Shown: positions 2,350-57,536 of the stretch, piece after piece | Position numbering within the stretch: position 1 is the stretch's first letter | How the letters are laid out: every line of letters begins with the position of its first letter | Assembly: GCF_018704125.1 (NCBI RefSeq) | Contig: NZ_JAGTIS010000015.1 | Span: 1 to 64,000, forward strand | Direction: 5' to 3' | DNA length: 64,000 nucleotides | Origin: Metapseudomonas boanensis | Lineage (GTDB): Bacteria > Pseudomonadota > Gammaproteobacteria > Pseudomonadales > Pseudomonadaceae | Program-made: the position numbers and the translations under genes | Notes under the pieces: model-generated | What the model was told of the DNA's origin: nothing | What the model saw: only the letters and a program-made list of their open reading frames with translations | Database searches by the model: none

Positions 2350-3225
2350 ATGGACCTCATCCGCCGCCGCATCGAATCCCAGGTCATCGGTCTCACCGGG
2401 CTTGCCCTGGGCCAGATCGACTTCGAAACGCCCAAGGGCGATCCCGGCCTGTTCGGGCCTGACTCCGCCTGCTGGAGGGTTCACGGCGACTTCACCTCGA
2501 TGCTCATCGGTGGCATCAGTGCCCTGCTGCTGCAGGCCCTACACCCCCTGGCACTGGCAGGTGTCTGGGACCACTCAAACTTCCGCCAGGACCTACTCGG
2601 CCGTCTGCGCCGCACCGGCCAATTCATCTCGGGCACCACCTATGGCACGCGCCGAGACGCTGACTGGCTGATCGATAAAGTCCGCACCATCCACCTGCAA
2701 GTGGCGGGACACGCTCCTGACGGCCGCCCCTACGCTGCCAGCGACCCTGACCTTCTGACCTGGGTCCACGTGGCCGAAGTCAGCAGCTTTCTGAAAGCAC
2801 ACCTGCGCTACCTCAACCCACAGCTCCCGGGTGAAGAGCAGGACCGCTATTACGCCGAAATCGCCCTGGTCGCCGAGCGACTCGGCGCACGGGACGTGCC
2901 GCGCTCACGCCAGGCCGTGGCGGAATACCTCGACGCGATGCGCCCACAATTGAGGTGTGATGAACGCAGCCAGGAAATCGTCCGGGTCCTGCTGGCCGCG
3001 CCCGCTCCCAGCGCCCTCGCCAAACCCTTTGGCTGGCTGATGTTGCGCGCCGGCATCGAACTGCTTCCAGACTGGGCCAGTACGCTGCTGGAACTCCAGC
3101 AATCGCCGTGGCAGCGTCGACTGATCCACCACGGCGTGAACCAGATCGCCCCGATCCTGCGTTGGGCTGTGCGCAATGGCGCGGTCCACCGCGCTCGTCG
3201 GCGCATGGGCCTTCCGGCTCGTTGA
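2350..3225 (+). CDS. Oxygenase MpaB family protein (DUF2236)
   Basis: The 291 residues show the hallmarks of the DUF2236/MpaB-like family: an N-terminal region with RVHGDFTSMLIGG followed by LLLQALHPLALAGVWDHS, then WVHVAEVSSFLKAH in the middle. The fungal namesake MpaB is an oxygenase; bacterial members are mostly uncharacterised and thought to bind haem through conserved histidines. There is no signal peptide. The hydrophobic stretch near residues 55-70 could be membrane-associated. It lies 64 bp after acs on the same strand and may be cotranscribed. Substrate unknown. Confidence 0.8.
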   Translation: MDLIRRRIESQVIGLTGLALGQIDFETPKGDPGLFGPDSACWRVHGDFTSMLIGGISALLLQALHPLALAGVWDHSNFRQDLLGRLRRTGQFISGTTYGTRRDADWLIDKVRTIHLQVAGHAPDGRPYAASDPDLLTWVHVAEVSSFLKAHLRYLNPQLPGEEQDRYYAEIALVAERLGARDVPRSRQAVAEYLDAMRPQLRCDERSQEIVRVLLAAPAPSALAKPFGWLMLRAGIELLPDWASTLLELQQSPWQRRLIHHGVNQIAPILRWAVRNGAVHRARRRMGLPAR

Positions 3226-3311
3226 GGTTGGTCCGGCCCTTATCGCTGTGCGACCATTGAGTCCTTCGCGGTCAATGTTCGACCGTTTTCCATCGCAGTG
3301 AGGACCGTTTC

Positions 3312-4490
3312 ATGCGTGAAGTCGTTATCGTCGCCGCCACCCGCACCGCCATTGGCAGCTTTCAGGGCGCCCTGGCCACTATCCCCGCCCCCGAATTGGG
3401 CGCTGCGGTGATCCGCCAGCTACTGGCACAGACTGGCCTGGACGGTGCCGAGGTAGACGAAGTGATCCTCGGCCAGACACTCACCGCAGGCTCCGGGCAA
3501 AACCCGGCACGCCAGGCGGCGATCTTCGCCGGCCTGCCCCATGCGGTGCCAGCGATGACCCTGAACAAAGTCTGCGGATCCGGCCTCAAGGCCCTGCACC
3601 TGGCCGCCCAGGCCATCCGCTGCGGCGACGCGGAAGTGATCATTGCCGGTGGCCAGGAGAACATGAGCCTGGCTCCGTACGTGATGCCTGGTGCTCGCAC
3701 CGGCTTGCGCATGGGGCACGCCAAGCTGATCGACACCATGATCCATGACGGCCTGTGGGACGCCTTCAACGACTATCACATGGGGACCACTGCCGAGAAC
3801 CTGGTGGAGAAATATGGCATCACCCGCGAGGCCCAGGATGCCTTCGCCGCAGCCTCGCAGCAGAAGGCGGTGGCCGCCATTGAAGCGGGTCGCTTCCAGG
3901 ACGAGATCACCCCGATCATGATCCCGCAGCGCAAGGGTGACTCCATTGCCTTCGCCACTGACGAAAATCCGCGTGCCGGCACCACCGCTGAAGCACTGGC
4001 CAAGTTGAAGCCGGCCTTCAAGAAGGACGGCAGCGTCACCGCCGGCAACGCCTCCAGCCTGAACGACGGCGCTGCCGCCGTGCTGCTGATGAGCGCCGAG
4101 AAGGCCAAGGCACTGGGCCTGCCAGTGCTAGCGCGCATCGCCGGCTACGCCAATGCCGGTGTCGACCCGGCGATCATGGGCATCGGCCCGGTGTCCGCCA
4201 CCCGCCGGTGCCTGGAAAAGGCCGGCTGGAGCCTCGAGCAACTGGATCTGATCGAAGCAAACGAAGCGTTCGCCGCCCAGGCATTGTCGGTGGGCCAGGA
4301 ACTGGGCTGGAACTCGGCCAAGGTCAATGTCAACGGTGGTGCGATTGCCCTGGGTCACCCGATCGGGGCGTCGGGCTGCCGCATTCTGGTGACGCTGCTG
4401 CACGAGATGATCAAGCGTGATGCCAAGAAGGGTTTGGCAACGCTGTGCATCGGTGGGGGCCAGGGCGTGGCGCTGGCGATCGAGCGTTGA
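3312..4490 (+). CDS. Acetyl-CoA C-acetyltransferase (thiolase)
   Basis: This is a biosynthetic-type thiolase that condenses two acetyl-CoA to acetoacetyl-CoA or runs the reverse cleavage. The 392 residues are typical. The acyl-accepting cysteine is in [10 protein letters not shown] (about Cys88), the histidine in LGHPIGASG (about His349), and the second catalytic cysteine in CIGGGQG (about Cys379). An aggacc ribosome site precedes the ATG. The gene follows acs and the MpaB-like gene on the same strand and is closed by a terminator. It could be named atoB or phaA in databases; the true role, whether ketone-body use or polyester supply, cannot be decided here. Confidence 0.93.
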
Positions 4491-4512
4491 TTGCGATGTT
4501 ATAGGTGAGGAT

Positions 4513-4536
4513 GCCGACCCTTGGGTCGGCGCTTTT
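4513..4536 (+). terminator. Intrinsic terminator after the thiolase gene
   Basis: gccgaccc and gggtcggc form an 8-bp GC-rich stem with a tight turn, followed by gctttt. It lies 22 bp after the thiolase stop codon. Confidence 0.75.
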
Positions 4537-4603
4537 GTAGGTGCACCAGCTACCCTCAGCCCCAGACTGATAGACTACCCACCCCTTCAACGAGACGTCG
4601 CGC

Positions 4604-5623
4604 ATGCCCTCCTCTCTCGACCAGGCGCTGCGCGCCGCCCTTCTATCCCGCCAAGCGCTGCTGGCCGAACTCCACCAGCAAGGTACCGATTGCTACCGCC
4701 TGTTCCACGGCAGCCAGGAAGGCGCGGCCGGGCTCACAGTCGATCGCTACGGCCCCCAGTTGCTGGTGCAAAGTTTCCATGAGACGCTGGAGCGCGAAGC
4801 GCTGTTGGGCTTGGCCGACCTGATCAATAAGACCCTCGATCAACAACTGCTGCTGGTCTACAACGACCGCTCCCAAGGCAATTCCCGAGTCGACCGCCGC
4901 GACCCCATCTACCAAGCGGAACCTGCTGCGCTGGAGGACCTGGTCGGGCACGAATGGGGCCTGAAGTACCGTGTGCGTGGGCGCCACGCCGGTCAGGATC
5001 CATTGCTGTTTCTCGACCTGCGCAATGCCCGTGGCTGGGTGCGCCAGAACAGCGCAGACAAGTCGGTGCTCAACCTCTTCGCCTACACCTGCGGCGTCGG
5101 TCTCTGCGCAGCGGCTGGTGGCGCGCGGGAAGTCTGGAACCTGGATTTCGCAGAAGGCAACCTGGCGGTCGGTCGTGAGAATGCGGCGCTGAATCCCGAG
5201 CTGGCGCCCATGCGCTTCCTGCAGTCCGACTACTTCCCCGCCATTCGCCAGCTGGCCGGGCTGCCCATTGCGCGGCGCCATGGCCAGCGCCTGCCCAGCT
5301 ACCCAAGACTGGAGCAACGGCACTTCGACCTGGTATTTCTCGACCCGCCCGCCTGGGCCAAGAGTGCCTTTGGCACCGTGGACCTGCAACGTGACTACCA
5401 GAGCCTGCTCAAACCTGCCCTGCTGGCCACCGCCGAGGGGGGCACCCTGGTCTGCAACAACAACCTGGCGAAGGTCGACCTGGAAGGCTGGCGAGAGCAG
5501 GTGCTGCGCTGTGCCAGCAAGCTGGGTCGGCCGGTACGTGACTGGCAGGTACTGACGCCGGCAGGCGACTTTCCATCCCTGGACGCCCGCCCGCCCCTGA
5601 AGACCCTGGTGCTGAACTTCTGA
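4604..5623 (+). CDS. Class I SAM-dependent methyltransferase (RlmI-like)
   Basis: The 339-residue protein carries a SAM-binding motif I region (LNLFAYTCGVGLCAAAGG) and the catalytic-type motif FDLVFLDPPAWAKS near the C-terminal third. It matches the RlmI/RlmL group that methylates 23S rRNA bases. The N-terminal GLTVDRYG resembles the pre-catalytic domain of RlmI. The exact target base is not knowable from sequence. The start at 4604 follows a cgagacgtcgcgc stretch with only a weak ribosome site. It stands alone between a terminator and the DUF748 gene. Confidence 0.8.
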   Translation: MPSSLDQALRAALLSRQALLAELHQQGTDCYRLFHGSQEGAAGLTVDRYGPQLLVQSFHETLEREALLGLADLINKTLDQQLLLVYNDRSQGNSRVDRRDPIYQAEPAALEDLVGHEWGLKYRVRGRHAGQDPLLFLDLRNARGWVRQNSADKSVLNLFAYTCGVGLCAAAGGAREVWNLDFAEGNLAVGRENAALNPELAPMRFLQSDYFPAIRQLAGLPIARRHGQRLPSYPRLEQRHFDLVFLDPPAWAKSAFGTVDLQRDYQSLLKPALLATAEGGTLVCNNNLAKVDLEGWREQVLRCASKLGRPVRDWQVLTPAGDFPSLDARPPLKTLVLNF

Positions 5624-5723
5624 TCAGGAGAACCACCACTCAAACGCTCCTACTGCAACGAGCGGAACCTTGAGGCCGTGCCATAATCCAACGCATCTTT
5701 GCCGGGATAGATGGCGCCTCACC

Positions 5724-8639
5724 ATGTACAAAGGACTGAAACGCGCTGTTTGCGCCTTGTTGATCGTCGTTGCACTTTATAGCCTGCTTGGCTTTCTGAT
5801 CATTCCGGGTATCGCCCTACGGGTGGCCAACCAGCAACTGGCCCAATACGCCACGGTGCCGGCACGGTTGGAGCGTATCCAGTTCAACCCTTATAGCCTG
5901 GAGCTGAACCTCTGGAGCCTGCGCATTGGCGAGCAGGACGCCGAACAGGCAGGCTTCCAGCGCCTCTACGCCAACGTTGAGCTGGACAGCCTGTGGACTG
6001 GCGCCCTGCACCTCGCGGACGTCGAGCTCGAAAAATCCACCACCGAGGTGCTGTTCGCGAAGGACGGCACCCTCAACCTGGCGCAACTGTTCAAGGTGCC
6101 GCCCAGCGAGCCAAAGCCGGCGGCCCCTGCCAGCGGGCCGTTCCCTCTGCGTATCGACCGCATCGAACTGATCGAAGGTGGCCTGCACTTTGAGGACCTG
6201 CGCCCGAGCGAAGCCATAGAATTCGTCTACGACTCGCTCAACCTTGAACTGCGCAATCTCAGCACCCTCCCGGACGACTCTGCCGAGATGTCGCTGGTGG
6301 CGACCGGTCCCCACGGCGGTCGTATCGACTGGCAAGGCCAGGTCAGCCTGGTGCCACTCACCTCCAGCGGCCAACTGAAGATCACCGATGGCAAGTTGAA
6401 AGGCATCTGGCCCTACGTTCGCGACGCCGTACCCCTGGTCCTCGAGAATGGTGTAGTCAGCCTGTCCGGTGATTATCGCTTGAGCCTGGCGGAAGGCACC
6501 CAGCTCAACCTGGACAACATCTGGATCAAGATCGCTCCGTTTGCCATCAAGGCCCCCGATAATCGGCCGTTGGTGCGCCTGGATGAGCTGGAGGTCAGTG
6601 AAACCTCGCTGGACCTTGCCAAGCAGGAGGTAGTGGTCGGCAAGGTCCGCAGCCAGAACCTGGAAACCTGGGCAGCCCGCGAAGCTGATGGCCAACTCGA
6701 CTGGCAGAAGCTCTTCGCCGGACAACCCAAACCTGCGGCAAATGCCGAGGAGAAGCCCGCAGCGGGAACCGCTGAACAAGCCACCAAGGTCGCGGACTCT
6801 CCCGCCAAGCCCTGGGTTGTCGTACTGCGCGATACGCAGCTGCGCGGCTACAAGGTCCACCTCGCGGACCGCGTCCCCAAGAAGGCCGTTGAGCTGGATG
6901 TAGGCCCGCTGAACCTGGACATCAAGGACTTCGACAGCCGCGGCGAATCTCCCTTCAACCTGAGCCTGGATACCGGTCTAGGCAAGCAGGGCAAGCTACA
7001 GGCCGTCGGTCAGGCCCAGCTCAAGCCGACCACCGCGAAGCTGCAAGTACAAACCCGGGATATCGACCTGCGTCTGGCGCAAGCCTACATGGAGCCCTTC
7101 GTACGCCTCGAACTGCGCAGCGGCATGCTGGACAGCGATCTCGAGGTTAGCCTGAAGGGCACCGAGCCCTTGGCTCTCGGCGTCACCGGTCGTGCCCTGG
7201 TCAACCAATTGCACACGCTGGATACGCTCAAGGAGCGCGATTTCGTCAGATGGCAGCAGCTTCTGGTCGAAGGTCTGGACTACCAGCACGGCGACACCCT
7301 CAGCATCGCCACGGTAAGCCTCAACCAACCCTACGCACGCTTCATCATCAACGAAGACCTCACCACCAACGTCAACGACCTGATGATTCCACAGCCCTCC
7401 CAGCCAACACCGGCCCAGGCCGAACCTGCTGGCAAGCCGCTGGGCATCCACATCGGCGCCATCAACATCAAGGAGGGTTCCGCCAACTTCGCCGACTTCA
7501 GCCTGACCCCGAACTTCGCAACCGCTATCCAGCAGCTCAACGGTGAAATAGGCACCCTCGATAGCCGAAAACCTGAGCCAGCCAAGGTGCAGGTGGCAGG
7601 CAAGGTCGACCGTTATGCCCCGGTCACCATCAAAGGCAGCGTGAACCCCTTCAACCCACTCGACAGCCTGGACATAGCCACCAGCTTCAAGCGCGTAGAA
7701 CTGACCACCCTGACGCCCTACTCCGGCAAGTTCGCCGGCTACCGCATTCGCAAGGGCCGCCTGAATCTGGATCTTCATTACCGGATCAAGCAAGGCCAGC
7801 TGAACGCGGACAATCACCTGGTCCTCGAGCAATTGCAGTTGGGAGAACAAGTCAGCAGCCCGGATGCGGTAGACCTCCCCATCCGCCTGGCCGTGGCTCT
7901 GCTGAAGGACGCCGAAGGCAAAATCGACATCGAGCTTCCGGTAGCTGGCAACCTCAATGACCCTCAATTCAGCGTGGCTCCCATCATCTGGCAGACCCTG
8001 CGCAATCTGATCCTGCGTGCAGTCCAGGCGCCCTTCAAGTTCGTTGCGGGCCTAGTCGAGGGCGGTACTGAGGAACTTGGCCAGGTTCCCTTCAACGCAG
8101 GTAGCAGCGAACTGGAGAGCGATGCCCAACGCAACCTCGATACCCTGGCCAATGCACTCAAGGAACGCCCGGCCCTGCGCCTGGAGATCGAAGGCCTCAG
8201 TGCCAAGGCTGCGGATGGGCCTCTGCTGGCCGAACAGCGCCTGGAGCGCGAATACCAGAGCACCTACTACAAGATTGCTCAACGGCGCGGTGACAAGGTG
8301 CCGGCAGAAGCCAAGCAGATCGAAGTCCCGGATGACGAGAAGGCCCCCATGCTGGAAGGCATCTACCGCAGCCGACTGAAACAACAGCCGCCGACCGAAT
8401 GGGCTGAACTGGACGGCGAGCAGCGTGCCGCCAAGCTTCAAGAAGCAGTGCTGGCCAACTGGGCGCAGAGTGACCTCCTGTTGCGCCAACTGGCCCAGGC
8501 TCGCGCGGCCAGCATCAAGGATTACCTGGTGGACCGTGGCGGCCTGGCCGATGAGCGGGTATACCTGCTGGATGTCAGCATCGGCGAGGCCGACCCGAGC
8601 GGTAAGGTCGTGACTCCGCTGCACCTGGGAAGTGAATAG
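5724..8639 (+). CDS. DUF748 family AsmA-like envelope protein
   Basis: A large protein of about 971 residues with one N-terminal membrane anchor (residues about 7-30, VCALLIVVALYSLLGFLI) and a long periplasmic part of repeated beta-rich segments such as LELNLWSLRIG and NLELRNLSTLP. These are typical of DUF748, a relative of AsmA/TamB proteins implicated in lipid movement between the two membranes. The final quarter (SELESDAQRNLDTLANALKE) recalls the OmpA-type peptidoglycan-binding start. The ATG at 5724 is preferred because it puts the hydrophobic anchor at the N-terminus; a TTG at 5670 would add 18 unlikely residues. The stop overlaps the next gene's possible GTG start. Confidence 0.82.
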   Translation: MYKGLKRAVCALLIVVALYSLLGFLIIPGIALRVANQQLAQYATVPARLERIQFNPYSLELNLWSLRIGEQDAEQAGFQRLYANVELDSLWTGALHLADVELEKSTTEVLFAKDGTLNLAQLFKVPPSEPKPAAPASGPFPLRIDRIELIEGGLHFEDLRPSEAIEFVYDSLNLELRNLSTLPDDSAEMSLVATGPHGGRIDWQGQVSLVPLTSSGQLKITDGKLKGIWPYVRDAVPLVLENGVVSLSGDYRLSLAEGTQLNLDNIWIKIAPFAIKAPDNRPLVRLDELEVSETSLDLAKQEVVVGKVRSQNLETWAAREADGQLDWQKLFAGQPKPAANAEEKPAAGTAEQATKVADSPAKPWVVVLRDTQLRGYKVHLADRVPKKAVELDVGPLNLDIKDFDSRGESPFNLSLDTGLGKQGKLQAVGQAQLKPTTAKLQVQTRDIDLRLAQAYMEPFVRLELRSGMLDSDLEVSLKGTEPLALGVTGRALVNQLHTLDTLKERDFVRWQQLLVEGLDYQHGDTLSIATVSLNQPYARFIINEDLTTNVNDLMIPQPSQPTPAQAEPAGKPLGIHIGAINIKEGSANFADFSLTPNFATAIQQLNGEIGTLDSRKPEPAKVQVAGKVDRYAPVTIKGSVNPFNPLDSLDIATSFKRVELTTLTPYSGKFAGYRIRKGRLNLDLHYRIKQGQLNADNHLVLEQLQLGEQVSSPDAVDLPIRLAVALLKDAEGKIDIELPVAGNLNDPQFSVAPIIWQTLRNLILRAVQAPFKFVAGLVEGGTEELGQVPFNAGSSELESDAQRNLDTLANALKERPALRLEIEGLSAKAADGPLLAEQRLEREYQSTYYKIAQRRGDKVPAEAKQIEVPDDEKAPMLEGIYRSRLKQQPPTEWAELDGEQRAAKLQEAVLANWAQSDLLLRQLAQARAASIKDYLVDRGGLADERVYLLDVSIGEADPSGKVVTPLHLGSE

Positions 8640-8646
8640 TACGCCC

Positions 8647-8937
8647 ATGCGCAAGCTGCCGGCCGCCCTTTGCCTTCTAGCCCTGGCCACTTCCGCCGGG
8701 GCCGAGACCATGCGCTGTGGCAGCAAGCTGGTGAGTGTTGGCGACCGTAGCTTCGAGGTCTTGCAGAAATGCGGGGAGCCCGTCAGCCGCGATCTGATCG
8801 GATACACGCTGGGTTCATATGACCAGCGCGATTACAAGATCGAGGAGTGGGTGTACGGCCCCAACAATGGCATGTTCCGCATCCTCACCTTCGAGGGTAA
8901 TCGACTGAAAAGCATCGAGACCCGCCGCGACCACTGA
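8647..8937 (+). CDS. DUF2845 exported small protein (first of two)
   Basis: This small protein of 96 residues has a clear signal peptide (MRKLPAALCLLALATSAGA, cleavage before ETMRC). The mature part carries CGSKLVSVGDRSFEVLQKCGEP and EWVYGPNNGM, the DUF2845 pattern, with two cysteines that may form a disulfide. It begins almost directly behind the DUF748 gene, so the two probably share a transcript. A GTG at 8632, overlapping the DUF748 stop, is an alternative start, but ATG 8647 places the signal peptide correctly. Function unknown. Confidence 0.8.
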   Translation: MRKLPAALCLLALATSAGAETMRCGSKLVSVGDRSFEVLQKCGEPVSRDLIGYTLGSYDQRDYKIEEWVYGPNNGMFRILTFEGNRLKSIETRRDH

Positions 8938-52460: not shown

Positions 52461-52835
52461 GGGGCCGATTAGGATTCGACGCCGGTAACAAAACTCTAGG
52501 GGCATGCCGAGCTGGTAGCAGACCTCGTAAATTAGCTGCTGCAAACTATTAGTTGCCAACGACGACAACTACGGGGCGGCCCTCGCGGCCTAACCCTTCT
52601 GGCGGCTTCGGCTGCCAGCAGTCACTAGGGGATGCCTGTAAACCCGAAACGACTGTCAGATAGAACAGGATCGCCGCCAAGTTCGCTGTAGACGTAACGG
52701 CTAAAACTCATACAGCTCGCTCAGAGCACCCTGCCAGTCGGGCCGCAATGAGCTAACTCAGTAGACTTGGCTAAGCATGTAGTCCCGAAAGCGGAGAGCT
52801 GGCGGACGGGGGTTCAAGTCCCCCCGGCTCCACCA
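52461..52835 (+). ncRNA. ssrA: Transfer-messenger RNA (tmRNA)
   Basis: The 375-base RNA starts GGGGCCGATTAGGATTCGAC and ends GGTTCAAGTCCCCC..CTCCACCA; the ends form the alanine-type acceptor stem and T arm. The tag reading frame at 52555-52593 starts at GCC after tagtt and encodes ANDDNYGAALAA and stop, two residues longer than the ten-residue E. coli tag but ending LAA, which ClpXP recognises. The 3' end is the insertion site of the island that follows. SmpB, its partner, is at 39737. Confidence 0.96.
52801..52835 (+). other. Island attachment site (attL) at the ssrA 3' end
   Basis: The last 35 bases of ssrA, including the T arm and CCA, abut an integrase gene starting 184 bp downstream in the same direction. 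ssrA is a known target for P4-type integrases. The exact core cannot be fixed because the second copy is outside the window. Confidence 0.7.
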
Positions 52836-53019: not shown

Positions 53020-54276
53020 ATGGGTGCCCAAGCCACGCGCCTTTCAGACCTCAAAGTCAAAGCCGCCAAACCTAAGGAAAAGGACTACACGCTCACTGAT
53101 GGCAATGGACTTCAATTGCGAGTGAGAATCAATGGCTCAAGGCTGTGGAATTTCAACTATATCCATCCCGTAACCAAAAAACGGATCAACATGGGACTAG
53201 GCACCTTCCCCGAGGTGAGCCTGGCTCAAGCACGCAAGCGAACCGTTGAGGCCAGGGAGCTCGTCGCTCAGGGACTAGATCCCAAAGAAAGGCGCAATGC
53301 TGATCGACAAGCCAAAAAGGCAGCGACTGAGCATACGTTCCAGAACGTGGCAACGGCCTGGTATGAACTGAAAAAGGATGCGGTTACCCAGGCCTACGCC
53401 GAGGACATCTGGCGCTCTCTCACGCTACACATCTTCCCTGACTTGGGCACCACCCCCATCTCTGCCATCAACGCCCCTCAGGTCATCAATCTGCTCCGCC
53501 CGCTCGAAACCAAGGGCAGCCTTGAGACCGTTAAACGGCTGACGCAGCGGCTCAACGAAATCATGACCTACGGGGTCAACTCGGGACTGATTCACGCGAA
53601 CCCGCTCAGTGGGATCCGCTCCGTCTTCAAGAAGCCGAAGAAGAAGAACATGGCGGCACTGCCCCCAGATGAGCTGAAAGAGCTCATGGTGGCAATCGCC
53701 AATGCCAGCATCAAAAGAACGACCCGCTGCCTGATTGAATGGCAGCTTCACACCATGACCCGGCCAGCCGAGGCAGCGACCACCCGCTGGGCGGACATCG
53801 ACATCGAGAAGAAGGTCTGGACAATTCCCGCCGAACGAATGAAGAAACGCCGCACGCACATTGTCCCGCTCACGGAACAGGCGCTGGCGCTTCTGGAAGC
53901 GATCAAGCCTTACAGCGGACATCGCGAATACGTCTTCCCTGCAGACCGTAACCCGCGCACCCACTGCAATAGTCAGACTGCCAACATGGCCCTGAAACGC
54001 ATGGGTTTCGAAGGGCGCCTGGTCAGCCATGGCATGCGATCAATGGCCAGCACCATCCTCAACGAACACGGCTGGGATCCAGAATTGATCGAGGTAGCGC
54101 TTGCCCACGTCGACAAGGACGAGGTTCGCAGCGCCTACAACCGGGCGGACTACATTGAGCGCAGGCGCCCGATGATGACCTGGTGGAGCGAGCACATCCA
54201 AGAAGCAGCTATGGGCAATCTGTCGGTGTCAGCTGTCAAGGAGAATCGGGACAGAAAAGTCGTTTCGATACGCTGA
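53020..54276 (+). CDS. Tyrosine recombinase (P4-type integrase)
   Basis: The 418 residues have an N-terminal arm-binding DUF4102 domain (RLSDLKVKAAKPKEKDYTL and MGLGTFPEVSLAQARKR), a SAM-like core-binding part (about 105-205), and the catalytic domain with Arg248 (HTMTRPAEAATTRW), HGMR (His337, Arg340), His363 in LAHVDKD and Tyr373 in SAYNRADY. It integrates and excises the island at ssrA. All catalytic residues are intact, so it may be active. Start ATG 53020 matches family N-termini. Confidence 0.95.
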   Translation: MGAQATRLSDLKVKAAKPKEKDYTLTDGNGLQLRVRINGSRLWNFNYIHPVTKKRINMGLGTFPEVSLAQARKRTVEARELVAQGLDPKERRNADRQAKKAATEHTFQNVATAWYELKKDAVTQAYAEDIWRSLTLHIFPDLGTTPISAINAPQVINLLRPLETKGSLETVKRLTQRLNEIMTYGVNSGLIHANPLSGIRSVFKKPKKKNMAALPPDELKELMVAIANASIKRTTRCLIEWQLHTMTRPAEAATTRWADIDIEKKVWTIPAERMKKRRTHIVPLTEQALALLEAIKPYSGHREYVFPADRNPRTHCNSQTANMALKRMGFEGRLVSHGMRSMASTILNEHGWDPELIEVALAHVDKDEVRSAYNRADYIERRRPMMTWWSEHIQEAAMGNLSVSAVKENRDRKVVSIR

Positions 54277-54331: not shown

Positions 54332-54877
54332 TCAATCGTAGTGAACCCAGCGTTGATCTTCGAAGCTGTATTCGTATTTTGAAAAGGAGTCCCCGGCGGC
54401 TGAAGGCACAGCCAAATAGGGACGTCCTTCCCTCACTCGGTAGATCACCTCCGGCTGGAAGACGGCAATCCGTACTGCCGGAAGTCTTGGCAGATGCTTG
54501 GGGCTGAGGGCCGCAAGAGTTTCCGGATAGCCCCCATTTTCCTGCTTGAAGTCTTCGATCGCCTTGGCGATAGGCGATGCCATTCCCGGGGTAAGCTTGT
54601 CGGTTTTTAACACCGCCACAACCGCCAGGGCTGAAACAACCATCATCACGACCACTCGCCGGCACAGGCGTGCGCACCACGCTTTATCTTTAATAACGAG
54701 AAATGCTGCCAGCGCAGTGGGAATCCCCAGCAGAACGACACCAATCAGCACCATCATTGAAAGAATCGCCGTGCCGAATAGCACAGCAGGTACAACTGTG
54801 AGCAGAAGCACTAAAACCCACGTAATGCGAATTTCGCTTACCCAGGCTTCCCAACGCTTTCTACAAAACTCTGTCAT
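54332..54877 (-). CDS. Membrane protein of unknown function
   Basis: 181 residues with two or three membrane helices (ITWVLVLLLTVVPAVLFGTAILSMMVLIGVVLLGIPTALAAFLVI near 18-62, and VVVMMVVSALAVVAVL near 75-90), then a soluble part: PIAKAIEDFKQENGGYPETLAALSPKHLPRLPA. The latter resembles the globular part of pilin-like or secretin-pathway pseudopilins (DFKxENGxYPETLxxL), found in many uncharacterised proteins. It is on the opposite strand to the integrase, in the AT-richer cargo region. Function unknown. Confidence 0.65.
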   Translation of the reverse strand: MTEFCRKRWEAWVSEIRITWVLVLLLTVVPAVLFGTAILSMMVLIGVVLLGIPTALAAFLVIKDKAWCARLCRRVVVMMVVSALAVVAVLKTDKLTPGMASPIAKAIEDFKQENGGYPETLAALSPKHLPRLPAVRIAVFQPEVIYRVREGRPYLAVPSAAGDSFSKYEYSFEDQRWVHYD

Positions 54878-54895
54878 GGTGAGGCTCTGAAACCC

Positions 54896-55192
54896 TTATG
54901 TGCGATAATAAACAAGCAAAGCCATTTCTATTACCTCCCGAACGCCGCAAAGACTCTCATCCTCCGCTGCATCAATCCACCCAGGAAGCATTGAAATCAT
55001 TTCCAGACCCTCTTCATCCAGCTTTCCGCTCCGAGGAAGCAGTATCTCAGCGACCCAAGCCGCCTCTAGCGCAGTCCCATTCAGCACATCGAACAAGCAC
55101 AACCGGAGCATATAAAGACCATACCGCTCTTTCTTGGCAGCATCAATTGCAGCCCTGACAGCGTTAGCCTTATTTGAATTGGGAACACGCAT
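54896..55192 (-). CDS. Hypothetical protein
   Basis: 98 residues, no signal peptide and no membrane segment: MRVPNSNKANAVRAAIDAAKKERYG, then LRLCLFDVLNGTALEAAWVAEILLPR, and ISMLPGWIDAAEDESLC. Mostly helical. ATG 55192 is chosen over an in-frame start seven codons upstream. It is 18 bp before the membrane-protein gene on the same strand and may be made with it. I do not recognise a family. Confidence 0.55.
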   Translation of the reverse strand: MRVPNSNKANAVRAAIDAAKKERYGLYMLRLCLFDVLNGTALEAAWVAEILLPRSGKLDEEGLEMISMLPGWIDAAEDESLCGVREVIEMALLVYYRT

Positions 55193-55356
55193 TATAAACA
55201 GCCCCCGCGTCACACCAAAAAATTCAGGACCTGATAAAAGCGCATGAAATTCAATTCAGATTCGCCAAACCCTAATAGCAAGGCGATTCTTTAAGCACGA
55301 CCAGAGCGACAATCAAACCACCCACACGCCCCTACCGCATCATTACCTTTAACAAG

Positions 55357-56886
55357 TTAAGCTCCAGCGCAATGATGCGCCATAACATCCTCTACATCCA
55401 TCAATCGAAGATCAGGAAAAAGGATGTCATTCCCCCTCAAAAGCTTATACCAATTTAAGTCACTCTCAAAATACTCCACCTGCGCCTCTGTTAAAGAAAA
55501 GGGATTCCTACTCCCCAGCGCACTCCATTTCAATTTATCCGAAAAACGATCAATTAATCCAAAAGACCATGGAATGGTTTTATTGGAAAATAATTGCCTC
55601 CACCCCCAGAGCCCTTCAAACCGTTCAATTAGCTCTACTGACCAAGGCAGAGCCTCATTTGAAGAAAGCACCTCCCAAAACCATTTCCCCTGAAATCGTT
55701 CAATCAACTCAAGCGACCAAGGTAAAGCCATATTTCTAGAAAGACCCACCCAATCCCAATGATCTTCGAAACGTTCGACCAAATCAATCGACCAAGGTAG
55801 GGCTTGGTTTTCAGACAATGCAGACAACTTAAATCGCCCCGAAAAATAATCGATAAAGCCGACAGACCACGGGATCTTTTTATTTTTAAACAACACATCC
55901 CAATCCCAGTGATCTTTAAAACGCTCCACAAGAAAAATTGACCAAGGCAAAGCCACATTGCGAGACAGCGTAGACCAACACCAGCAATCCTCATAACGTT
56001 CGATCAACTCGACGGACCATGGTAGAGCAGTATTATTGGAAAGCTGCAGCCAATTCCAGCGACCCTCAAAGTTCTCAATCAGATCTACTGACCATGGCAA
56101 CCCTTTATTCTCAGACAACCCAGACCAGTCCCAACGCCCCTCAAAACACTTGAGCAACCCAAATGACCAAGGAAGCGTGGGAACAAGACTCAGACTTCGC
56201 CAATTCAAAGAATCCGCATAATACACTATCAACTCCGCCGACCACGGAATGGAAAAGTTATAACTAAGACACTCCCACTCCCAACGATCTTTAAAGTGAT
56301 CAATTAGCCCGAGTGACCACGGCAGATACTCATTACTAGAAAGCCCCTCCATTGCCTCCCAGTCCCAGCGCCCCTCAAAGCGCTCAATCAGTTCGATTGA
56401 CCATGGCAAGTCTTGTCTTATGGACAGCCCCCACCAGTCCCAACGACTCTCAAAGCGCGCTATCAGTTCGTCTGACCATGGCAATGATTTATTTTGAGAA
56501 AGACCCGACCAGCACCATCGTTCCTCAAAACGCTCAATCAATTCGAATGACCAAGGTAACGCGGTATTCATGGAAAGGGCTTTCCAGTTCCAGCGATCCT
56601 CATAACGCTCAATCAAATCGATTGACCAAACCAAGGCTCTATTACAGGATATTCCAGCCCAGTCCCATTGCGTCAGATAGGATTCTAAAAGATCGCCAGA
56701 AAGCACCTGCTTACAGGACAGAAAGCTTTTTGTACCCTTAAATGAAACTCGCTTGAGCATGGCAACTAGCCGCCCCCGCTCAAGTTCCATGCACATAGCC
56801 TGTCGCCTGCCGGCCATCGGCACCTGCTCCGGATAGTGATTAACACTTGCAGGTAGCGATTCGCGGCGAGATTCTTGCTCACTCAT
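55357..56886 (-). CDS. Protein of seventeen 25-residue W/LPWS repeats
   Basis: The 509 residues consist of an N-terminal stretch of about 73 residues followed by tandem units of 25 residues with the pattern WxWxxLSxNxxLPWSxELIERFExR. I count seventeen units; one (EAMEGLSSN) carries a three-residue insertion, and the last two are degenerate. Each unit spans 75 bp of DNA. There is no signal peptide or membrane helix. The GC content is clearly below that of the core genes, which suggests transfer. A gaggcaaatct ribosome site precedes the ATG. I recognise no family; the repeats are likely to form an extended solenoid scaffold. Confidence 0.7.
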   Translation of the reverse strand: MSEQESRRESLPASVNHYPEQVPMAGRRQAMCMELERGRLVAMLKRVSFKGTKSFLSCKQVLSGDLLESYLTQWDWAGISCNRALVWSIDLIERYEDRWNWKALSMNTALPWSFELIERFEERWCWSGLSQNKSLPWSDELIARFESRWDWWGLSIRQDLPWSIELIERFEGRWDWEAMEGLSSNEYLPWSLGLIDHFKDRWEWECLSYNFSIPWSAELIVYYADSLNWRSLSLVPTLPWSFGLLKCFEGRWDWSGLSENKGLPWSVDLIENFEGRWNWLQLSNNTALPWSVELIERYEDCWCWSTLSRNVALPWSIFLVERFKDHWDWDVLFKNKKIPWSVGFIDYFSGRFKLSALSENQALPWSIDLVERFEDHWDWVGLSRNMALPWSLELIERFQGKWFWEVLSSNEALPWSVELIERFEGLWGWRQLFSNKTIPWSFGLIDRFSDKLKWSALGSRNPFSLTEAQVEYFESDLNWYKLLRGNDILFPDLRLMDVEDVMAHHCAGA

Positions 56887-56923
56887 AGATTTGCCTCAAT
56901 ACTCCTGATAGGAGGAACGCTAC

Positions 56924-57046
56924 ATGAACCGCCTCGGCGATGAAACCTGTCGACGGCATTGCAAGTACGCAGGCGACGTTTTACACAGCTTGGGTCGATG
57001 GCGCGTTAGAATTTTCGTAGAAGCGCCAGAATCGGTCATTTTTTGA
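56924..57046 (+). CDS. Possible 40-residue protein
   Basis: An ORF of 40 codons (MNRLGDETCRRHCKYAGDV at the start) with an aggagg ribosome site 8 bases before its ATG. It is in the 320-bp gap between the repeat gene and the zinc-ribbon gene, divergent from the former. The rest of the gap holds the direct repeats at 57027 and 57085. Coding status is uncertain; there is no recognisable domain. Confidence 0.3.
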   Translation: MNRLGDETCRRHCKYAGDVLHSLGRWRVRIFVEAPESVIF

Positions 57047-57095
57047 GCTACAGAGACAGCTCCCGCCAAAGTCGGATTTTTCAACAGAATCGGTC
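57027..57095. repeat. Two direct copies of cagaatcggtc
   Basis: The 11-base word occurs at 57027-57037 and 57085-57095, 58 bases apart, in the gap before the zinc-ribbon gene. It could be a remnant of a mobile element end or a binding site; no inverted terminal repeat was found with it. Confidence 0.45.
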
Positions 57096-57206
57096 GACTG
57101 CCGCCGTCACAGCCTTAGTTCTGATGCACACGACACAGCAATTCGATTCGAAAAAATCTCAGCCCTACATAACAGCAATGACACCCCTACCAAGGAGCTT
57201 CTAACC

Positions 57207-57536
57207 ATGTCATTGCAGTGCCCTCGCTGCCACTCCCCAAAAGTCGCTTCCTTCCACCACGCCATGAAAGTCGGCGCGGCCATCGGCACCGTCGGTGGTA
57301 TTGCGCGTGGCGTCAGCACTGCCCTCGCTGGTGGTCAGGCCGGCGCAGCGCTCGGTGCTTTCGCCGGGCCCATCGGCATCACGCTCGGAACCGTGTCGGG
57401 CGCCATCCTTGGTGGACTGGCTGGCGGTGTTAGTGGCTGTGCGCTCGGCGCCCAATTGGGCGAATCGCTCGACCGCCACTTCCTGGCCCATAACCTCTGC
57501 CTGCTCTGCGGACATCGCTTCAACCTGCCGGCCTAG
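57207..57536 (+). CDS. Zinc-ribbon protein with Gly-rich hydrophobic core
   Basis: 109 residues: an N-terminal CPRC (MSLQCPRCHSPK), a long Gly/Ala stretch (VGAAIGTVGGIARGVSTALAGGQAGAALGAFAG...ILGGLAGG) of glycine-zipper type, and a C-terminal LCLLCGHRFNL. The two CxxC pairs probably share one zinc, holding the ends of a membrane-inserting or oligomerising middle. An aaggag ribosome site precedes the ATG. A protein of similar build lies at 60964. Function unknown. Confidence 0.6.
   Translation: MSLQCPRCHSPKVASFHHAMKVGAAIGTVGGIARGVSTALAGGQAGAALGAFAGPIGITLGTVSGAILGGLAGGVSGCALGAQLGESLDRHFLAHNLCLLCGHRFNLPA

Follow-up and report, generated by a model that had tools for sequence, protein, structure and literature searches.

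A gene whose product consists largely of short tandem repeats, set beside the integrase of a genomic island, raises the questions of what family such a protein belongs to and what it does for the bacterium that carries it. The gene lies in a 64,000-nucleotide stretch of the Metapseudomonas boanensis genome (hereafter the window), and the original prediction, drawn from this DNA, proposed a solenoid sensor or scaffold of a defence or host-interaction system.

Architecture and divergence of the repeat array

The repeat gene occupies positions 55357–56886 on the minus strand of the window, as an open reading frame with an ATG start and no internal stops that encodes a tryptophan-repeat protein of 509 residues, predicted to be an alpha-solenoid. 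Residues 1–73 form an N-terminal cap (positions 56668–56886, same strand), of exactly the length first proposed, that is common to the partner-linked subfamily described below. The cap is followed by 15 units of 25 residues scored by the unit profile (residues 74–451, positions 55534–56667, minus strand), one of which (residues 174–201) is 28 residues long, and by two degenerate units beyond the profile-scored array (residues 452–476 and 477 onward), which together with the C-terminal tail make up residues 452–509 (positions 55360–55533, minus strand), where model confidence is low. The seventeen-fold array of the original prediction is obtained if both degenerate units are counted, whereas the profile scores 15, and its unit of 25 residues per 75 bp applies in general, with the exception of the 28-residue unit.

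The units follow the consensus W-x-W-x-x-L-S-x-N-x-x-L-P-W-S-x-E-L-I-E-R-F-E-x-R. In a comparison of 14 units that leaves out the 28-residue unit and the last two, W14 and S15 are present in all 14, and W3 and P13 in 13. Positions 2, 4, 5, 8, 10 and 11 are variable and presumably lie on the solenoid surface, whereas the core positions are nearly invariant. Mean pairwise identity among these units is 0.51 at the amino-acid and 0.58 at the nucleotide level, with a pS of 0.73 (near saturation) as opposed to a pN of 0.33. At the DNA level, Tandem Repeats Finder detects a 75-bp period over 3.6 copies only, indicating that the array has diverged. The near saturation of synonymous change, together with retention of the W-W...LPWS core, argues for an ancient array maintained by selection for its fold, in agreement with the proposal that the copies differ yet keep the Trp pair and the LPWS motif. 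The AT-richness that had been noted holds relative to the window only (46.7% GC for the repeat gene versus 60.4%). Candidate promoters and terminators were no more numerous than in shuffled sequence.

Predicted fold, family and distribution

The AlphaFold2 model computed with 12 aligned sequences has a mean pLDDT of 81.7, with 310 of the 509 residues at or above 90 (mean pLDDT of 63 without the alignment), and exhibits two short helices per unit. The window protein is thus modelled as an alpha-solenoid, as anticipated, and may resemble leucine-rich variant repeats. ARM/HEAT and PPR helical repeats likewise form short-helix solenoids; the top VIA-align matches are PP2A scaffold chains with a Z-score of 6.7, and values this low are common among helical repeats. 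Foldseek against the PDB gives nothing at E ≤ 0.001 for the window model, and neither Pfam nor the PDB was found to hold a curated family model or reference structure for the repeat. A housekeeping protein was rejected for the lack of any Pfam match, of any NCBIfam match above cut-off and of a convincing PDB relative; the NCBIfam model TIGR02235 reaches 32 bits against a cut-off of 225, with no stretch passing alone. Pfam matches of the Salinibacter copies to CaM-KIIN and Sigma_1s were likewise rejected as repeat artefacts with no passing stretch.

Against viral models, Foldseek yields 49 matches at E ≤ 0.001. The first in rank is unnamed, ranks two and three go to entomopoxvirus proteins that bear the tryptophan repeat name, and those that follow are uncharacterised giant-virus and phage G proteins. 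We take the name ‘tryptophan repeat’ to originate in entomopoxvirus genomics. Two members of this gene family, MSV205 and a protein of a Mythimna separata entomopoxvirus among them, match at E values of 1e-18 and 5e-19 with a probability of 1.00, but differ from the window protein in being viral, in having no partner enzyme known from these searches, in an identity of 18–19% and in TM-scores of 0.34–0.48 (long members). The family of phage proteins phrog_3532 also matches the window protein, at E 9.2e-23. The repeat family is hence already known by name, contrary to the earlier statement that no family has this exact unit. Three jumbo-phage proteins match phrog_3532 at E 5e-79 to 4e-92, but are shorter than the window protein (233–279 aa) and lack the LPWS core, and two of them are unmatched by our repeat profile A2. 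One member of the tryptophan repeat gene family has been reported with an F-box (PMC7728225), and the available portions of the open-licence literature state no function for the family (PMC7728225, PMC3901692, PMC6540820, PMC6669658).

Kinship of this kind may point to a virus-derived host-interaction or anti-defence protein that the island carries as a passenger gene. Six adjoining Bacillus phage BpSp genes are annotated as tryptophan repeat proteins, like the entomopoxvirus family, and these genes, the phrog_3532 match and the fold shared with several phage G, entomopoxvirus and giant-virus proteins are consistent with such an origin. The nearest relatives of the window protein, by sequence and by cap, are nevertheless bacterial genes adjoining the PLD/J partner described below and not phage genes, the phage relatives being only 25–27% identical to it, and we regard a viral passenger as rather improbable.

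The distribution of the repeats is patchy. The window genome (5.7 Mb) carries one copy, none of 17 congeners has the gene, and the repeats occur in at least 1 of 298 genomes of its family and at least 1 of 369 of its class, in both cases the window genome itself. Relatives were found at 15 loci on genome contigs (14 distinct, L011 being a duplicate of L010), in four plasmid records, in four phage records, two of which are the same phage G, and in one viral contig. Within the phylum of the Rikenella MAG, assumed to be Bacteroidota, at least 5 of 395 genomes contain the repeats, one being already known as L023, and the family of the Rhodocyclaceae MAG contributes 1 of 86 genomes, an already known locus. 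The identical ORFs of L010 and L011 were binned in two MAGs, assigned to Proteobacteria and to Nanoarchaeota, and one of these bins is probably contaminated. Profile A2, built from six sequences, matched 26 of 29 real proteins and none of the 1189 control sequences derived from them by shuffling or reversal. L006a, L007 and L008a, all from phage, are unmatched by this profile and are linked to the family by tblastn, L007 and L008a by phrog_3532 as well.

Partner genes and fusions in the relatives

A PLD-like/coiled-coil/J-domain protein, or part of one, adjoins the repeats or is fused to them at 9 of the 14 distinct genome-contig loci, a count that drops L011, which has the ORFs of L010, and L024, where the contig begins inside the gene. 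In L009, L012, L013 and L018 the partner gene encodes ∼480 aa and lies directly upstream (−8 to +7 bp), and its product combines a PLD region (PF13091, E 3e-18 to 5e-20) bearing HKD and GSYNW motifs with a coiled coil and an HPD-bearing J-domain. The L017 partner is located 92 bp downstream of the repeat gene and is 52% identical to that of L018, whereas L010 retains the coiled-coil/J end of the partner at the contig edge. L016 has a J-domain gene with no Pfam PLD match, in which a stretch resembling a degraded PLD is seen by eye, and in L020 and L021 a PLD is fused to and adjoins the repeats, respectively, in both cases without a J-domain. A J-domain ORF precedes the repeat gene at the contig edge in L066. 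PF00226 scores above cut-off in L010 and L016 only; in L009, L012, L013, L018 and L066 it falls below, and the J-domain assignment rests on the HPD motif, which is present in 8 of the 10 partner sequences examined. Of the eight partner sequences that show a PLD region, three (L016, L020 and L021) have lost the catalytic histidine, so that the partner should not be taken for a nuclease at every locus.

The remaining 5 of the 14 loci (L014, L015, L019, L022 and L023) have another partner or none. A UvrD helicase gene precedes the L015 repeat gene at a distance of 99 bp, L019 has the repeats fused to Sel1 repeats, and no partner was recognised in L022 or in L023, the latter with an internal stop. 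In L002 the repeats are fused to ankyrins; a UvrD partner shared between L002 and L015 was considered and rejected, the helicases having only 79 aligned residues in common. Association with ankyrin and Sel1 repeats means that the solenoid may be a generic binder.

Repeat gene and partner are both rare. The partner search recovered at least 3 of 399 genomes of the order, one of them a known pair and two PLD-only. The partner was not found beside the plasmid and phage copies; 151 partner pattern matches in viral contigs, and two PLD-only matches in unrelated phage records, yielded no confirmed partner. Relatives of the coiled-coil/J gene occur on chromosomes of one gammaproteobacterial family (L038–L041) with no adjoining PLD or repeats, and none were found in E. 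coli. PADLOC gives weak matches of the partner to the PLD defence proteins DrmC of DISARM, MkoC and DpdK (E 1e-7 to 6e-3), from which it differs in its coiled coil, J-domain and adjoining repeat protein; the other neighbours of the partner, read by eye, included no recognisable DISARM, Mokosh or Dpd set.

Repeat proteins usually diverge fast. Among L009, L012, L013 and L018 the repeat proteins are 0.49–0.53 identical, compared with 0.73–0.81 for the partners, and the gap narrows in comparison with L017 (0.51–0.54 for the partner versus 0.42–0.49 for the repeat protein).

In a further set of relatives the repeats are joined to other enzymes. A DarT domain lies behind the repeats in L004 (1376–1578), L063 (from 1263), L064 (1263–1462) and L014 (506–677), and three of these four fusions have a NADAR or macrodomain gene behind them, the next gene being a macrodomain gene in L063 and L064 and a NADAR-DarT1 antitoxin gene (E 2e-89) in L014. 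DarTG has been described as an anti-phage system (PMC11543638). The relatives with repeats fused in front of a DarT domain resemble DarTG1 and DarTG2 in this domain and in the gene behind it; the window protein differs from these systems in having no Pfam DarT match and no NADAR or macrodomain match among its scanned neighbours. The gene before the L063 fusion encodes an AAA/superfamily-1 helicase by Pfam, and its L064 counterpart is 55% identical; the L063 fusion itself (2935–8781) is a 1948-aa protein whose C-terminal region past DarT is without a Pfam match. In L065 the repeats follow a PIF1 helicase within one protein, and upstream of the repeat gene on an Acinetobacter plasmid is a Fic-like gene (PADLOC SoFic, 9e-44).

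An apparent orphan copy in a defence slot, and its proposed role

By its N-terminal cap, the window copy belongs to the PLD/J-linked subfamily: the cap is 37–47% identical to those of L009, L012, L013 and L018 (shuffle Z of 22–24) and 22% identical to that of L017 (shuffle Z of 3.8). The partner was not found beside the window gene, in the contig or in the genome, and tblastn detects no remnant in the upstream intergenic stretch (positions 56887–57206), which is the partner position in several relatives. The search used (A3) recovers 7 of the 11 genomes or records behind partner loci and so provides a positive control for the empty result. The recurring partner nuclease that had been put forward as a sign of a defence role is accordingly found in relatives, but not in the window, where the copy looks like an orphan since its genome yields no partner.

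The orphan state keeps alive a different reading of the pair, in which the repeat protein is an antitoxin or immunity part that silences the PLD/J effector by binding to it, and a copy without a partner survives by protecting against incoming effectors of this kind. The spacing of −8 to +14 bp in eight measured loci is as tight as in toxin–antitoxin pairs, and an intact orphan ORF with no detectable partner fits immunity more easily than a lone sensor. Set against this, the repeats of the DarT fusions sit on the toxin polypeptide itself, a PLD is fused to the repeats in L020, and the separate macrodomain or NADAR gene after the L063, L064 and L014 fusions implies that the repeats are not needed as antitoxin there. 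We consider an antitoxin role possible, although clearly disfavoured.

The setting of the window copy is that of a mobile island. The tmRNA gene ssrA (positions 52461–52835, plus strand) is the inferred insertion site, and the tyrosine integrase that forms the left border of the cargo slot is confirmed at 53020–54276 (plus strand), near the repeat gene as described. A duplication of the ssrA end marking the far end of the island was sought and rejected, its last 15 or more bases having no second copy in the contig. Besides the repeat gene, the slot contains two small genes that run in the same direction on the minus strand, an ORF of 181 aa (54332–54877) whose N-terminal half is hydrophobic by eye and which has no match above a curated cut-off, and an ORF of 105 aa (54896–55213) with no Pfam or NCBIfam match, which a DNA search did not find in congeners. 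These two genes (54332–55213) were rejected as recurring partners, no match occurring in the fetched loci or plasmids. On the right, the slot is bordered by a small gene kept in congeners (57207–57536, plus strand), with weak zinc-ribbon and glycine-zipper matches below cut-offs, which is overlapped by an ORF containing a DUF932/TIGR03299 phage-plasmid protein (57295–58599, plus strand). In a DNA search of 18 congeners including the window genome, the tmRNA region is matched in all 17 others, the integrase at full length in G013 only (94% identical) and the window cargo in none.

Eight loci from seven genomes that carry the zinc-ribbon border gene (68–94% identity) were compared. L077, from G013, shares the integrase and encodes a CBASS phospholipase effector, a cyclase and an E1-E2 protein, a CBASS-like operon (2671–6525) in the same integrase/zinc-ribbon slot, whereas the other seven have the zinc-ribbon border alone in common with the window. 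Beside that gene are a complete and directly adjacent QatABCD set in L078 (664–5725), PDC-S35 and HEC-02B in L080, and Gabija GajA/GajB side by side with Wadjet-type JetA/JetC in L082 (3–10813). L084 contributes a DpdF-like helicase; the two proteins scanned in L083 gave a single weak match (PDC-M33A, 1e-14), and the one scanned in L081 gave none (PADLOC was given three proteins of L077, four of L078, three of L080, five of L082, two each of L083 and L084, and none of L079). Clear defence genes thus lie beside the zinc-ribbon gene at 4 of the 8 loci. The proposed link to defence is supported by this slot and by the recurring effector partners in relatives.

The slot also bears on whether the solenoid is a chaperone adaptor that picks Hsp70 clients through its J-domain partner with no part in defence. 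Retention of HPD in 8 of 10 partners while the catalytic PLD motif is absent from 3 of 8, as well as the existence of chromosomal coiled-coil/J genes without a PLD, would suit such an adaptor; a rare and patchy distribution (at least 1 of 369 genomes of the class), a location in a defence slot and the lack of any Pfam J-domain match in the DarT and PIF1 fusions speak against it, and make it quite improbable.

We favour, at a probability of about 0.5, an alpha-solenoid that serves defence effectors acting on nucleic acid as their recognition or regulatory subunit, a reading drawn from neighbours, fusions and location. The conserved core with its free positions, the faster divergence of the repeat protein among the four close pairs (less marked in comparison with L017) and its association with several nucleic-acid enzymes favour a binding module that would set the timing or the target of an effector. 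What the computation itself provides is the anatomy and homology of the protein, its predicted fold, the recurring partner and the fusions in relatives, the undetected partner in the window genome and the slot; each functional step is inferred. What the solenoid binds would most likely be either a product of the phage or a host factor altered by infection, and binding would release or target the attached effector. The J-domain of the partner suggests that Hsp70/DnaK is recruited to remodel the complex, after which the effector may attack nucleic acid and phage growth would stop, with the caveat that some PLD copies are without the catalytic histidine.

The PLD/J and repeat pair and the DarT and PIF1 repeat fusions were not found in the open-licence literature searched; the recurrence of the partner and these fusions are new here. 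More speculatively, the Trp-repeat solenoid might be a so far unrecognised module with which bacterial immunity in general senses pathogens, mounted on PLD/J, DarT and PIF1 effectors much as leucine-rich or tetratricopeptide repeats are in other immune receptors. The Trp-repeat proteins found in jumbo phages and in large DNA viruses would then be its viral counterparts, acting as decoys or as binders of a shared ligand. The PLD/coiled-coil/J protein and the Trp-repeat protein constitute a candidate two-gene defence system whose repeat part is without a model in PADLOC-DB 2.0.0 (0 families at E ≤ 0.01), and a family named in insect viruses, recurring in bacteria beside or fused to nucleic-acid enzymes, thereby acquires a testable role.
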